Of a stretch of DNA of 64,000 nt, positions 57,376 to 60,667 are shown one piece after another. The stretch comes from Prochlorococcus sp. AG-363-A16 (GTDB taxonomy: Bacteria > Cyanobacteriota > Cyanobacteriia > PCC-6307 > Cyanobiaceae). Position 1 is the stretch's first letter; every line of letters starts with the position of its first letter. A model generated the notes under the pieces. The model saw only the letters and a program-made list of their open reading frames with translations, ran no database searches and was not told the origin of the DNA. The stretch covers positions 1 through 64,000 of the forward strand of contig QCFB01000008.1 of NCBI GenBank assembly GCA_003280345.1. Reading direction: 5' to 3'. Made by a program: the position numbers and the translations under genes.

Positions 57376-57777
57376 TTAATCCTGAACGTAGGGAGTTGCT
57401 GTGAGCAAGCACTCTTCTGCCTTTTGGAGCTCTCTGCCCAGGTATAGGGCATGATCGAATCGACTGAGAGGAATTGGTCCACTACCTTCTGTGATCTTGA
57501 TTCCAATTTCTTTTGCACTGCGACCTTTAAAGATTTTTGTTGGGGTCCTCATTACACTATTACTACAGTCAATAGGTTTGCCAGTATCTGGATCGGTTGC
57601 GAGGCCAGCATCATCAATATCATTGGTGTAATGCTCGACTACAAGTTCTTTTGTTAATTGGTTTAACTTGATCAGAAAATATCCACTTGGATCTAGTTCA
57701 ATGAACCTTTTAGAAAGCTCATCATCTAGAACTTGAATTGCTTTGGTGGTTTCGTTTTTGATGATGTTATTAATCAT
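57376..57777 (-). CDS. DUF4346 family protein
   Basis: 133 residues. GYFLIKLNQLTKELVVEHYT and the C-terminal HALYLGRELQKAEECLL match the DUF4346 domain, known in cyanobacteria and some archaea where it sometimes is fused with dihydropteroate synthase-like proteins. Function is unknown. ATG at 57777. It follows the DUF482 gene by 16 bp on the same strand. Confidence 0.8.
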   Translation of the reverse strand: MINNIIKNETTKAIQVLDDELSKRFIELDPSGYFLIKLNQLTKELVVEHYTNDIDDAGLATDPDTGKPIDCSNSVMRTPTKIFKGRSAKEIGIKITEGSGPIPLSRFDHALYLGRELQKAEECLLTATPYVQD

Positions 57778-57793: not shown

Positions 57794-58975
57794 TTAGAGG
57801 GTTGGACCATTGATTTTAAAAGGCAATTCATTATTTTCTGCTTCTATTTGATTAATCATAAATTTGTTTGCTTTTGGAAGCCACTGCTTAATCATCTCAC
57901 TCATTGTTTTGTCATACCACCTATGCAGACTTGCATGTTCTTTAGCTAGGAACCCCCTTCTTTGTTTATGATTGCCCCCAGCACCCGGATCAAAACTTTT
58001 TATTTTATTGTCTAACGCCCAGGAGATAGGGGAGTAATAACAGACTTCAAAATGAAGATAGTCGATTTCTTCTTTGCTGCCCCAGTATCGACCCCAAAGC
58101 ATGTCCCCATCTGTAACACATAAAGACATAGCTATGGGATCTTTTGAATCTAAACGATGTGCATTAAATAATATAATGTTATTTCTTTGCTTTGGATTTG
58201 CAAGTTCCTCGAAGAATGATTTAGATAGGTATTTGCTGCCCCATGGTCCCCAACGTGCGCAATGATTCTCATACAAATCATACATACAGTTCAAAATATC
58301 TTTATCAATTTCCATACCTGTTAGAGCAGAAATCTTGATCCCTGATTTTTGTATATATTGCCTTTCTCTTTTGATATTTCTTCGTTGATTTGAATTGAAA
58401 CTATTAAGATAATCTGAGAAATCTTTTTTCTCTTCAGCTAGCCAGAGGCTCTGCTTGTTTAGCCAAGTTGAGCACCCTGCATCTTCAGCGAGAGGACGCC
58501 AAATTGGGTCAACATACAAAAAGTTACAGCTAAGAATTCCATTTTCTTGAGCAAATTGATCGATTATTTGCATCATCAATTGAGTTAATTTTGCTTTGTC
58601 TTGGCCTGACTTGAAGAAAAATCGATATCCCTCTACTGGGCTTAGAGGACTCATCCCAAGAAGTTTTGGATAATAGTTAAGTCCTAGATCATTTGCTAAT
58701 TGTGCGAAGGCCTGATCAAAGACAAATTCACCAAAACTATGACTTTTAAGATATAAAGGAGCAATTGCTATCGGGTAGTTATCGCTCCACAAAGCTAAGT
58801 GTAGAGGTTGCCAACCTTTTTCAGAATAGATTGATTCTGACTTCTCTAGTGATTTAAGCCACTCCCATTTATAGAAAGGAATGACTCCTTCTCCAGCTAA
58901 TTCCTGCCATTGATACTCAGGAATTTCTTCTATTGATTGGTGCCAGCGGATATTGATGCGGGCCACGTTATTCAA
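57794..58975 (-). CDS. DUF482/peptidogalycan-type acyltransferase-like protein
   Basis: 393 residues with a FemAB/GNAT-like fold by family: LAGEGVIPFYKWEWLKSLE near the N-terminus, NQRRNIKRERQYIQKSGIKI, FDPGAGGNHKQRRGFLAKE near the C-terminus. Members (COG3146) are thought to transfer acyl or aminoacyl groups, perhaps in envelope biosynthesis. No experimental role is known to me. TTG at 58975; GTG at 58966 is possible. Confidence 0.85.
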   Translation of the reverse strand: MNNVARINIRWHQSIEEIPEYQWQELAGEGVIPFYKWEWLKSLEKSESIYSEKGWQPLHLALWSDNYPIAIAPLYLKSHSFGEFVFDQAFAQLANDLGLNYYPKLLGMSPLSPVEGYRFFFKSGQDKAKLTQLMMQIIDQFAQENGILSCNFLYVDPIWRPLAEDAGCSTWLNKQSLWLAEEKKDFSDYLNSFNSNQRRNIKRERQYIQKSGIKISALTGMEIDKDILNCMYDLYENHCARWGPWGSKYLSKSFFEELANPKQRNNIILFNAHRLDSKDPIAMSLCVTDGDMLWGRYWGSKEEIDYLHFEVCYYSPISWALDNKIKSFDPGAGGNHKQRRGFLAKEHASLHRWYDKTMSEMIKQWLPKANKFMINQIEAENNELPFKINGPTL

Positions 58976-59049: not shown

Positions 59050-59739
59050 TTAATACAAGGTATTTAAAGATCTTTTTCTAAGATATTTTAGCATTAATTC
59101 ATTGTTACTTAGGCGCTTGATTGAGTTTATAATCCAGGCATTTGGATTGCTTAATTCAACAGGTAAATTATTGATTTCATTTGGAATCCACGAATATTTT
59201 CCTCCAAGAAGTTTAGGAGTGAGAGTAAGTTGTAACTCATCTATTTGGTCTTCTTTTAACAATGAGCCTATTAATTGAGCTCCACCAAGAACTAATAGGC
59301 GTGAGATCCCTGCGTCTGTTAGTTGAGGCAAAGTTTCTGACCATTTTTCTTTCATAATTAATTCACGGTCAAATCCATATGTAGGAGAAGGACTTTTTTG
59401 TAATTTTTTTGGACTCAGTAGCCATCGATGAATTGGGGCATGAAAAAAAGGCCAATCTGTGCAGAAATCCTTGCGAGTACTTATTACCATTGCAATTGGT
59501 TGTTCAGATCGCCCTTCAATAGTCCTTTTTTTTATCAATTCAGGTTCACGAATCAAACAAGTGTTGCGATGTATACGCAATGTTCTCCCTCCAAGGAGAG
59601 TTATATCTGACCAAGCCAGTGCCTCCTCTAAAACATATCGGTCTCCTTCTCCTCCTAATGGGGTTTTACCTCCATGCGCTAGAGCTAGTCGACCATCAAG
59701 GCTGATCGCCAAAACAAGACGAGTCCATGGCTTTTTCAA
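59050..59739 (-). CDS. RibD C-terminal-type pteridine/pyrimidine reductase
   Basis: 229 residues with VLAISLDGRLALAHG at the start, DITLLGGRTLRIHR and LLVLGGAQLIGSLLKEDQID, the dihydrofolate-reductase-like fold of RibD_C. There is no deaminase domain, so it is a free reductase. It is 7 bp downstream of the PTPS gene, which suggests a pterin or folate substrate rather than riboflavin. TTG at 59739. The role is inference. Confidence 0.85.
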   Translation of the reverse strand: MKKPWTRLVLAISLDGRLALAHGGKTPLGGEGDRYVLEEALAWSDITLLGGRTLRIHRNTCLIREPELIKKRTIEGRSEQPIAMVISTRKDFCTDWPFFHAPIHRWLLSPKKLQKSPSPTYGFDRELIMKEKWSETLPQLTDAGISRLLVLGGAQLIGSLLKEDQIDELQLTLTPKLLGGKYSWIPNEINNLPVELSNPNAWIINSIKRLSNNELMLKYLRKRSLNTLY

Positions 59740-59746
59740 AGGGACT

Positions 59747-60667
59747 TTAGTGAATGGTCATAGTTTGGAGCTTTTGTGGTAATTCACCTAAGAGTGGTGT
59801 CTCGGCATAAACCTCAGCAGAATTGTTTGGACTTTCTTGAAGACGAACTTTGTGCAAGTTTGCTCCAATTTTTTTTATAGGTTGTTTAAGACGATCGTTA
59901 ATGTGGAGAGCAATATTTTCTGCAGTAGGCACACATTCCGAAAAATAAGGTATGTCCTTATTTAGGAATGTGTGATCAAAGGGCTCTGTAACCAAATCTT
60001 GGATTAATTGATTGATTTTGGATAGGTCACAAAGCATGCCTGTGCGTTTATCAATTGCTCCACGAATGGTGATATCTACGAGGTAGTTGTGCCCATGTCC
60101 GTTGGGCCTTGCACACTTCCCATAGATCTTTTCATTTTCTTCTTGGCTCAGTTCCTCTCTTGCTAAGCGATGCGCAGCAGCAAAATGAGTGCGAATGGTT
60201 AAGTAGGCATCCATAGCATTTCCTAAATAGTCGGCCCAAAGGTTTGGTTGTTCATACAGGCGAAGTCCCACAAGAGGTAAAAGGGGTTTTAGACGAGTCC
60301 AAATAATTCTGGCAAGAGCTTCTGTAGTTGGTAAGCATCCATTAGGTTGCGAGAGATCAAATTCTGGCCATGCTTCATTTAGAAAACGAAAGTCCAGTTG
60401 ACTTGTAATCTCTTCGTGGATCGCATGCTTAACATTTGAGAGGTTTAAAACCATGCCATCTGCATTTAGTTCTCCAATCATTGAGACAATCAACTCATAG
60501 TTATGTCCATGTCCAGGAGTAATTGCACATGATCCAAATTGAGCATGGTTGTCTGCGGGTGACAACTCAGGAAGCCAGTAAAGATGACTTGCACTGAAAC
60601 AAGCTCTCCTATTGATGACACAGCATCGACCCTCCCCATGCCGTGCCTGCGTTTGGATTTCAGTCAT
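59747..60667 (-). CDS. Tandem 6-pyruvoyl-tetrahydropterin-synthase-like protein
   Basis: 306 residues, two T-fold repeats. Each has a Cys-containing zinc and catalytic motif: CAITPGHGHNYEL in the first half and CARPNGHGHNYLV in the second, resembling the eukaryotic PTPS CxxPxGHGHNY pattern rather than E. coli QueD CxxxHGH. Zn ligand His appear in SASHLYW and AAAHRLA. Most PTPS are about 120-150 residues, so this is a duplication-fusion. It converts dihydroneopterin triphosphate or a relative. ATG at 60667. Confidence 0.92.
   Translation of the reverse strand: MTEIQTQARHGEGRCCVINRRACFSASHLYWLPELSPADNHAQFGSCAITPGHGHNYELIVSMIGELNADGMVLNLSNVKHAIHEEITSQLDFRFLNEAWPEFDLSQPNGCLPTTEALARIIWTRLKPLLPLVGLRLYEQPNLWADYLGNAMDAYLTIRTHFAAAHRLAREELSQEENEKIYGKCARPNGHGHNYLVDITIRGAIDKRTGMLCDLSKINQLIQDLVTEPFDHTFLNKDIPYFSECVPTAENIALHINDRLKQPIKKIGANLHKVRLQESPNNSAEVYAETPLLGELPQKLQTMTIH

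Follow-up and report, generated by a model that had tools for sequence, protein, structure and literature searches.

Prochlorococcus and Synechococcus rank among the most abundant phototrophs. The locus described here raises the question of which enzyme carries out the last step of folate synthesis in these and other cyanobacteria. A 2007 study (PMC1971073) reported that Prochlorococcus marinus has no recognisable dihydrofolate reductase (DHFR), though folate synthesis needs one, and listed the gene as missing; a 2026 paper (PMC12903740) calls the DHFR step "not clear" for most cyanobacteria. In the open-licence literature, no statement was found that names a RibD_C protein as the cyanobacterial DHFR. 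The window, that is, the whole stretch of DNA that was analysed (64,000 nucleotides of Prochlorococcus sp. AG-363-A16), comes from a 1.74-Mb genome assembly of 47 contigs that is 89% complete. Four of its genes are considered here:

59747 to 60667, minus strand: gene for a tandem 6-pyruvoyl-tetrahydropterin synthase (PTPS)-like protein, 306 aa (PF01242, E 7.4e-61, two PTPS stretches)
59050 to 59739, minus strand: free RibD_C reductase gene, 229 aa, TTG start (PF01872, E 9.6e-23)
57794 to 58975, minus strand: FemAB_like gene (PF04339), the downstream neighbour of the reductase gene
57376 to 57777, minus strand: PterinBD-DUF4346 gene (PF14251), encoding a small protein, on the same strand after the FemAB_like gene

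An earlier note on this DNA proposed that the first two genes form a pair that either produces or regenerates a reduced pterin or stands in for an absent folate reductase. Its description of the locus is accurate in that 7 bases separate the two open reading frames, both on the minus strand, the reductase has no riboflavin deaminase domain (PF01872 is its sole Pfam match), and a GHGHNY motif occurs in both halves of the PTPS. As for function, the folate-reductase half of the proposal is supported for the reductase, which is probably the DHFR of the majority of cyanobacteria, Prochlorococcus and marine Synechococcus among them; the case for the PTPS and the reductase acting together as a functional pair is weak. 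The evidence for both statements is given below.

The order of the two genes is not due to chance. The reductase gene follows the PTPS gene on the same strand in 30/30 loci (the window's own and 29 other best-scoring PTPS loci) and in all 80 of the named loci, which are mostly of the Prochlorococcus, Synechococcus and Cyanobium type. The gap between them, measured to the start codon closest to the PTPS stop, ranges from -23 to +35 bases, and because the genes either overlap or lie at most 35 bases apart they are probably co-translated and probably share an operon in picocyanobacteria. At least 71 of the 80 named loci, a number of which are truncated, have the PterinBD-DUF4346 gene. Synteny in the picocyanobacterial family extends over the whole neighbourhood, from rbfA to nadB, which rules out the adjacency within that family as an independent sign of joint function.

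The neighbourhood was also examined in other cyanobacteria, in 20 regions that each contain a free RibD_C gene and were picked by hand for family spread and long contigs; one of them (L274, family f23) carries another form of RibD_C. A PTPS gene lies near the reductase in 0/20 of these regions. In 11/20 the free RibD_C gene is immediately followed by a FemAB_like orthologue with the same orientation, and DUF4346 is close by in 3/20. Judged by eye among the matches listed, the PTPS and the reductase are close in two genomes outside the window's family, G149, in which they are adjacent, and G265, in which they are ~2.5 kb apart. The G149 locus, from another family, has the PTPS, reductase, FemAB_like and DUF4346 genes (the last partly seen at the end of the stretch) in the window's order. 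The earlier note had named a clear folA elsewhere in the genome together with no conserved pairing as grounds for giving up its proposal; no folA was found, and the pairing is kept in one family and one relative. The adjacency is real but local, a picocyanobacterial arrangement. Since elsewhere it is the FemAB_like gene that adjoins the reductase (11/20, against 0/20 for the PTPS), the deeper link is that of the reductase with FemAB_like, and the PTPS and the reductase need separate readings. We take COG3146 to correspond to PF04339 (FemAB_like). DUF4346 is a predicted pterin-binding domain, and COG3146 is listed as a predicted pterin-dependent enzyme (PMC3223725).

The tandem PTPS appears to be a separate, near-universal cyanobacterial enzyme. 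Among the matches listed, PTPS is found in 119/121 genomes of the window's family (76/76 near-complete ones), and the tandem form in 189 of 194 Cyanobacteriia genomes (188 at E<1e-90), with or without folA. The earlier note took both halves to be of the catalytic type, which holds for one of them. The C half (residues ~151-290) has His166/191/193, Cys185, Asp231-His232 and Glu278, presumably the PTPS catalytic set, complete in 110/110 cyanobacterial rows. In the N half (residues ~15-150), Glu139 and the zinc ligands His28/53/55 are kept in 110/110 rows, Cys47 in 109 (one Thr) and Asp92 in 107 (three Asn), but the position of the catalytic His is Phe93 in 101/101 family rows and Phe (seven) or Tyr (two) in the nine rows from other cyanobacteria. 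This retention of residues suggests that the N half serves as a binding site or carries out a different chemistry and is not decaying. Both halves are modelled as alpha-beta folds with a mean pLDDT of 88.7. Most likely the C half forms 6-pyruvoyl-tetrahydropterin, from which unconjugated tetrahydropterins would be made.

Two other identities were considered for the tandem PTPS and rejected. The whole protein scores 120.8 bits against the QueD profile (NCBIfam TIGR03367), above the cut-off of 89.25, and its halves score 51.2 and 73.6 bits, both below it, so that the cut-off is passed only by summing the two. A role as a FolB replacement is rejected since FolB, which the earlier note had asked to be looked for, is present in 76/76 near-complete family genomes and the PTPS Cys is retained; PTPS-III has a Glu in place of this Cys. 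A third PTPS-family protein is encoded in the source genome (G000:C10:36407-36808; L003:1459-1938). It has a single domain with HGY replacing HGH, its gene is divergent from a hisIE-like gene, and it scores 43 bits against QueD, far below the cut-off. Three PTPS matches are present in most family genomes among the matches listed.

The case for the reductase begins with the folate gene content of the family. None of the 121 family genomes, of which 76 are near-complete and one is the source, gave a DHFR_1 (PF00186) match at E<=1e-3. ThyX is present in 76/76 near-complete family genomes. A FolP-type PF00809 match is found in 67/81 genomes, in frames of 276-355 aa with one of 496 aa, lengths that give no sign of a fused reductase form, and no fusion of FolP to another domain was seen among these 67 frames. 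Other PF00809 matches lie in ~1200-aa frames that are presumably MetH, and in G020 and G034 no other type was seen. The source genome carries ThyX, FolB, FolP and the third, single-domain PTPS (contig C10), as well as a full-length RibD (C2:129164-129775, 381-aa frame).

Several additional observations were made on these genes. The ThyX match is split into parts ~1.3-1.4 kb apart within one 663-713-aa frame in G043, G058, G073, G102 and G104, as expected for an intein. ThyA-like matches occur in 22 genomes, and 20 of these span profile positions ~87-230 inside frames of ~500-576 aa; these partial matches represent a longer, divergent thymidylate-synthase-like protein. Thirteen of the 121 family genomes (G029, G089, G101 and ten others) have 3-5 RibD_C matches among the matches listed and so hold other copies. 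Annotated dihydrofolate reductases are reported for 21/67 freshwater picocyanobacteria (PMC9361551); the PF00186 search did not find these, and the extra RibD_C copies may be the proteins that were listed there. No relatives of the reductase were found in viral contigs (68 pattern matches, 0 relatives).

The distribution of folA and of free RibD_C proteins was compared across 194 Cyanobacteriia genomes. A strong DHFR_1 match (E<1e-30) is present in 23 (12%), and a further 14 have weak matches only. Free RibD_C proteins, which were re-searched in 52 of the 194 genomes, comprise type A, the form of the window reductase, in 157 genomes (one a fragment; the label was given by score and family, with 42 read by residue and 33 placed in the tree), and a form of family f23 in 18 genomes (G156 and G202 assigned by match alone); the remaining 19 have none. 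Strong folA occurs in 9/157 type A genomes, in 0/18 genomes with the f23 form and in 14/19 genomes without free RibD_C. In a contingency table counted by hand from the match tables, any free RibD_C is missing from 14/23 folA genomes and from 5/171 others (Fisher p=9.8e-12, with genomes and not independent events being counted), and by genus the p value is 7.6e-9 (G271's genus counted as lacking). The 14 folA genomes without free RibD_C belong to 12 genera and 11 families. The exclusion is weaker for type A alone (missing from 14/23 folA genomes and 23/171 others, p=2.0e-6) than for all free RibD_C forms together, and 18 of those 23 genomes have the f23 form.

The same pattern is seen within families. 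Four families (f4, f15, f24 and f32) include both states of both genes, and in these every loss of the reductase falls on a folA genome; the product of the exact probabilities is 1.4e-6 by genome and 4e-4 by genus. This test leaves out f3 (both genomes without the reductase, one with folA) and f13 (six genomes that keep the reductase, five with folA), which offer no contrast. Family f32 looks like a transition with every intermediate state, since G227 and G244 have both genes, G250 has folA alone and five others have the reductase alone. A 105-aa remnant of a free RibD_C protein (G210:C1:2537312-2537611; L232/L253) is found in a complete folA genome of f32. folA does not always displace the reductase, as nine of the 23 folA genomes retain it (five of f13, G222, G227, G244 and, as a piece, G210). 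The reductase is lost without any folA in f10 and f25, and five genomes have neither folA nor free RibD_C (G122, G124, G144, G206, which is 62% complete, and G211). It was also considered that thyA drives the loss of the reductase, and this was rejected (p=0.057, G271 counted as lacking).

These distributions bear on two alternatives. An unlikely one is that the reductase acts on unconjugated pterins, reducing the side chain of the PTPS product or converting dihydropterins to tetrahydropterins for glycosides of the biopterin or cyanopterin type, with FolA as a substitute because DHFR reduces dihydropterins poorly but sufficiently. In its favour, tetrahydropterin glycosides are described as abundant in cyanobacteria, where they are made in quantity (PMC3546692). 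The reductase gene directly follows the PTPS gene in all picocyanobacterial loci examined, the pterin-binding DUF4346 gene is nearby, and Asp33 and Thr172 of the reductase (discussed below) suit any 2-amino-4-oxo pterin; the PTPS, FemAB-like and DUF4346 neighbours suggest pterins at large rather than folate. Against this, the tandem PTPS is retained in 14/14 folA genomes without free RibD_C, which means that the PTPS product does not need the reductase, the PTPS is absent from the 20 regions around the reductase elsewhere, and the essential DHFR step would be left without a gene in these genomes.

It is still less probable that tetrahydrofolate is made by some other enzyme, such as a FolM/PTR1-like SDR, a flavoprotein or a member of a new family, with RibD_C doing an unrelated job and the exclusion reflecting lineage history. 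The five genomes with neither gene fit this, and both PMC1971073 and PMC12903740 leave the DHFR step open. However, the losses of the reductase fall together with folA in 12 genera from 11 families and also inside four families, the source genome's PF00186 and PF01872 matches, among those listed, are RibD and the free reductase only, and an earlier candidate, COG4319, failed to replace E. coli folA (PMC3223725).

The residues of the reductase also point to a folate role for it. All 36 RibD rows have Lys9, Asp57 and Glu151 (window-protein numbering), and the window reductase has Val9, His57 and Leu151 in their place. Across the 42 type A rows the first position is Val or Ile (42/42), the second is His, Tyr, Leu or Glu and never Asp, and the third is Leu, Met, Ser or Thr and never Glu (42/42); the Glu at the catalytic-Asp position, seen in six rows, is as in Rv2671 of Mycobacterium tuberculosis. 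A paper on yeast Rib7 and RibD/RibG (PMC3631187) proposes that the Lys recognises the C2 oxygen of the bacterial substrate and reports that yeast Rib7 needs both Asp83 and Glu180 to be active. Two other residues set type A apart from RibD. Asp33 is fixed in 42/42 type A rows and is Ala or Ser in 36/36 RibD rows, and Thr172 is likewise fixed in 42/42 and is Val, Met or Phe in RibD (36/36). In a profile comparison with four cyanobacterial FolA proteins, which gave a weak score (probability 29, E 6e-4), Asp33 and Thr172 fall on the invariant Asp35 and Thr124. The pterin-pocket residues of E. coli FolA are, we assume, Asp27 and Thr113. In the alignment, Asp33 has two further counterparts, Asp67 of Rv2671 and D33 of M. 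mazei Rib7, and both of these enzymes have a ligand with a 2-amino-4-oxopyrimidine ring.

The contacts of Rv2671 with antifolates are given as Asn32/Asp55/Glu181 (PMC10530724), and the numbers used here (Asn44/Asp67/Glu193) are those plus 12, an offset that we infer. Only one of the three, the Asp, is kept in type A, where Val and Leu replace the Asn and the Glu. All three Rv2671 residues occur in the f23 form (16/16 rows read), which is present in 18/19 f23 genomes; M. mazei Rib7 has the same set, which alone is no proof of a DHFR. In a tree built on 73 of 103 rows (10/30 family RibD and 12/22 family reductases kept), type A (support 95/88), the f23 form (99/96), RibD (100/99) and a group of 177-198-aa proteins (100/100) form separate clades. 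This last group of RibD_C/DHFR-like proteins (L245-L248, L254-L256) has the same Asp in 7/7 rows, and its presence in G144 and G211, which have no folA and no other free RibD_C, means that it may be a third replacement.

The fold of the window reductase is predicted by AlphaFold with a mean pLDDT of 93.1. By VIA-align, the model matches archaeal Rib7 (Z 25.6) above Rv2671 with a bound dihydropteridine ring (23.8), RibD/RibG (mostly 21-23) and T. maritima DHFR (17.4). That a riboflavin enzyme stands above Rv2671 is a point against the folate reading, and the predicted fold alone does not choose between Rib7, Rv2671, RibD and DHFR functions. A further alternative, that the protein is a second reductase of the riboflavin pathway which either duplicates RibD or uses the archaeal-type diaminopyrimidine, has the Pfam RibD_C assignment and these archaeal Rib7 matches in its favour and is nevertheless highly improbable, as a full-length RibD (381 aa) is encoded in the same genome, type A has lost the Lys and the Glu in 42/42 rows and has His, Tyr, Leu or Glu for Asp57, both acids are needed in yeast Rib7 (PMC3631187), and the folA exclusion would be left unexplained.

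Gene content, mutual exclusion and active-site residues make the reductase the best candidate found for DHFR in cyanobacteria. It would be an enzyme of the RibD_C fold, presumably dependent on NADPH, that no longer takes the riboflavin substrate, having lost the Lys that reads the C2 oxygen of the uracil and the two acids of ribose reduction. Asp33 and Thr172 would take the positions from which DHFR binds the 2-amino-4-oxo pterin ring, and the enzyme would turn the dihydrofolate (or dihydropteroate) from the FolP and FolC steps into the tetrahydro form. Because ThyX releases no dihydrofolate, only a low, biosynthetic flux through the reductase would be needed. A study of M. tuberculosis (PMC4879365) described viable strains without dfrA and thyA and proposed that Rv2671 and ThyX are sufficient. 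The content of ThyX and free RibD_C here is the same as in those strains, and the low flux would parallel that of strains living on ThyX and Rv2671, a distant relative.

We lean, if only slightly, towards a broader scheme in which a repurposed riboflavin-reductase fold replaces DHFR in most of the phylum, with type A being ancestral or nearly so in Cyanobacteriia and having been displaced by folA in ~12 sampled genera and by the Rv2671-like form in one family. The scheme would include a pterin block (RibD_C, FemAB-like, DUF4346 and, in some lineages, the tandem PTPS) whose other members are also folate or pterin enzymes, and the reductase would contribute to trimethoprim tolerance. Trimethoprim at up to 1.6 mg/L is reported to have had no inhibitory effect on the freshwater cyanobacteria under test in PMC4531292, which suggests the absence of folA as the reason and cites a paper of 2003, 'Life without dihydrofolate reductase FolA'. 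The locus provides a candidate gene for the last step of folate synthesis together with a residue-level prediction. If the assignment is true, it would fill a hole in cyanobacterial metabolic models, help to explain the rarity of folA in cyanobacteria, and mean that RibD_C proteins took over the DHFR step more than once.

The closest known systems can be compared with the two proteins as follows. The C half of the tandem PTPS aligns along its length with mammalian PTPS, of the eukaryotic type (PDB 3I2B, 1B66; E 3e-33), and has all of the catalytic and zinc residues; the cyanobacterial protein differs in being a fusion of two halves, with the N half lacking the catalytic His in every row. The reductase shares with Rv2671 (PDB 4XRB, 4XT4, 4XT6), a reported functional analogue of DHFR, a stand-alone RibD_C fold without a deaminase (Z 23.8 over 213 residues) and an Asp at the pyrimidine anchor (Asp67, corresponding to Asp33). 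The two proteins differ in that they are ~21% identical, the window reductase has Val and Leu in place of Asn44 and Glu193, and M. tuberculosis has Rv2671 in addition to DfrA, whereas no FolA was found here.

The closest fold is that of the archaeal and fungal Rib7/RED proteins (PDB 5XUX, 6P8C, 2AZN, 4HA7), with Z up to 25.6, and M. mazei Rib7 has an Asp in the Asp33 column that has been mutated there (5XV0, D33N). In contrast, the counterparts of Asp83 and Glu180 of yeast Rib7 are gone in 42/42 type A rows (Glu for Asp in six). The reductase domain of RibD/RibG has the same Pfam RibD_C assignment and the same cofactor-site glycines, but the window reductase has no deaminase, has changed the Lys, Asp and Glu, has Asp33 and Thr172, and belongs to a separate clade. 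With FolA (PF00186) it has a fold in common (Z 14-17), and Asp33 and Thr172 align, with a weak score, with the invariant Asp and Thr; it differs in having no PF00186 match and in its length, 229 aa as compared to 166-177 aa in four cyanobacterial FolA proteins.
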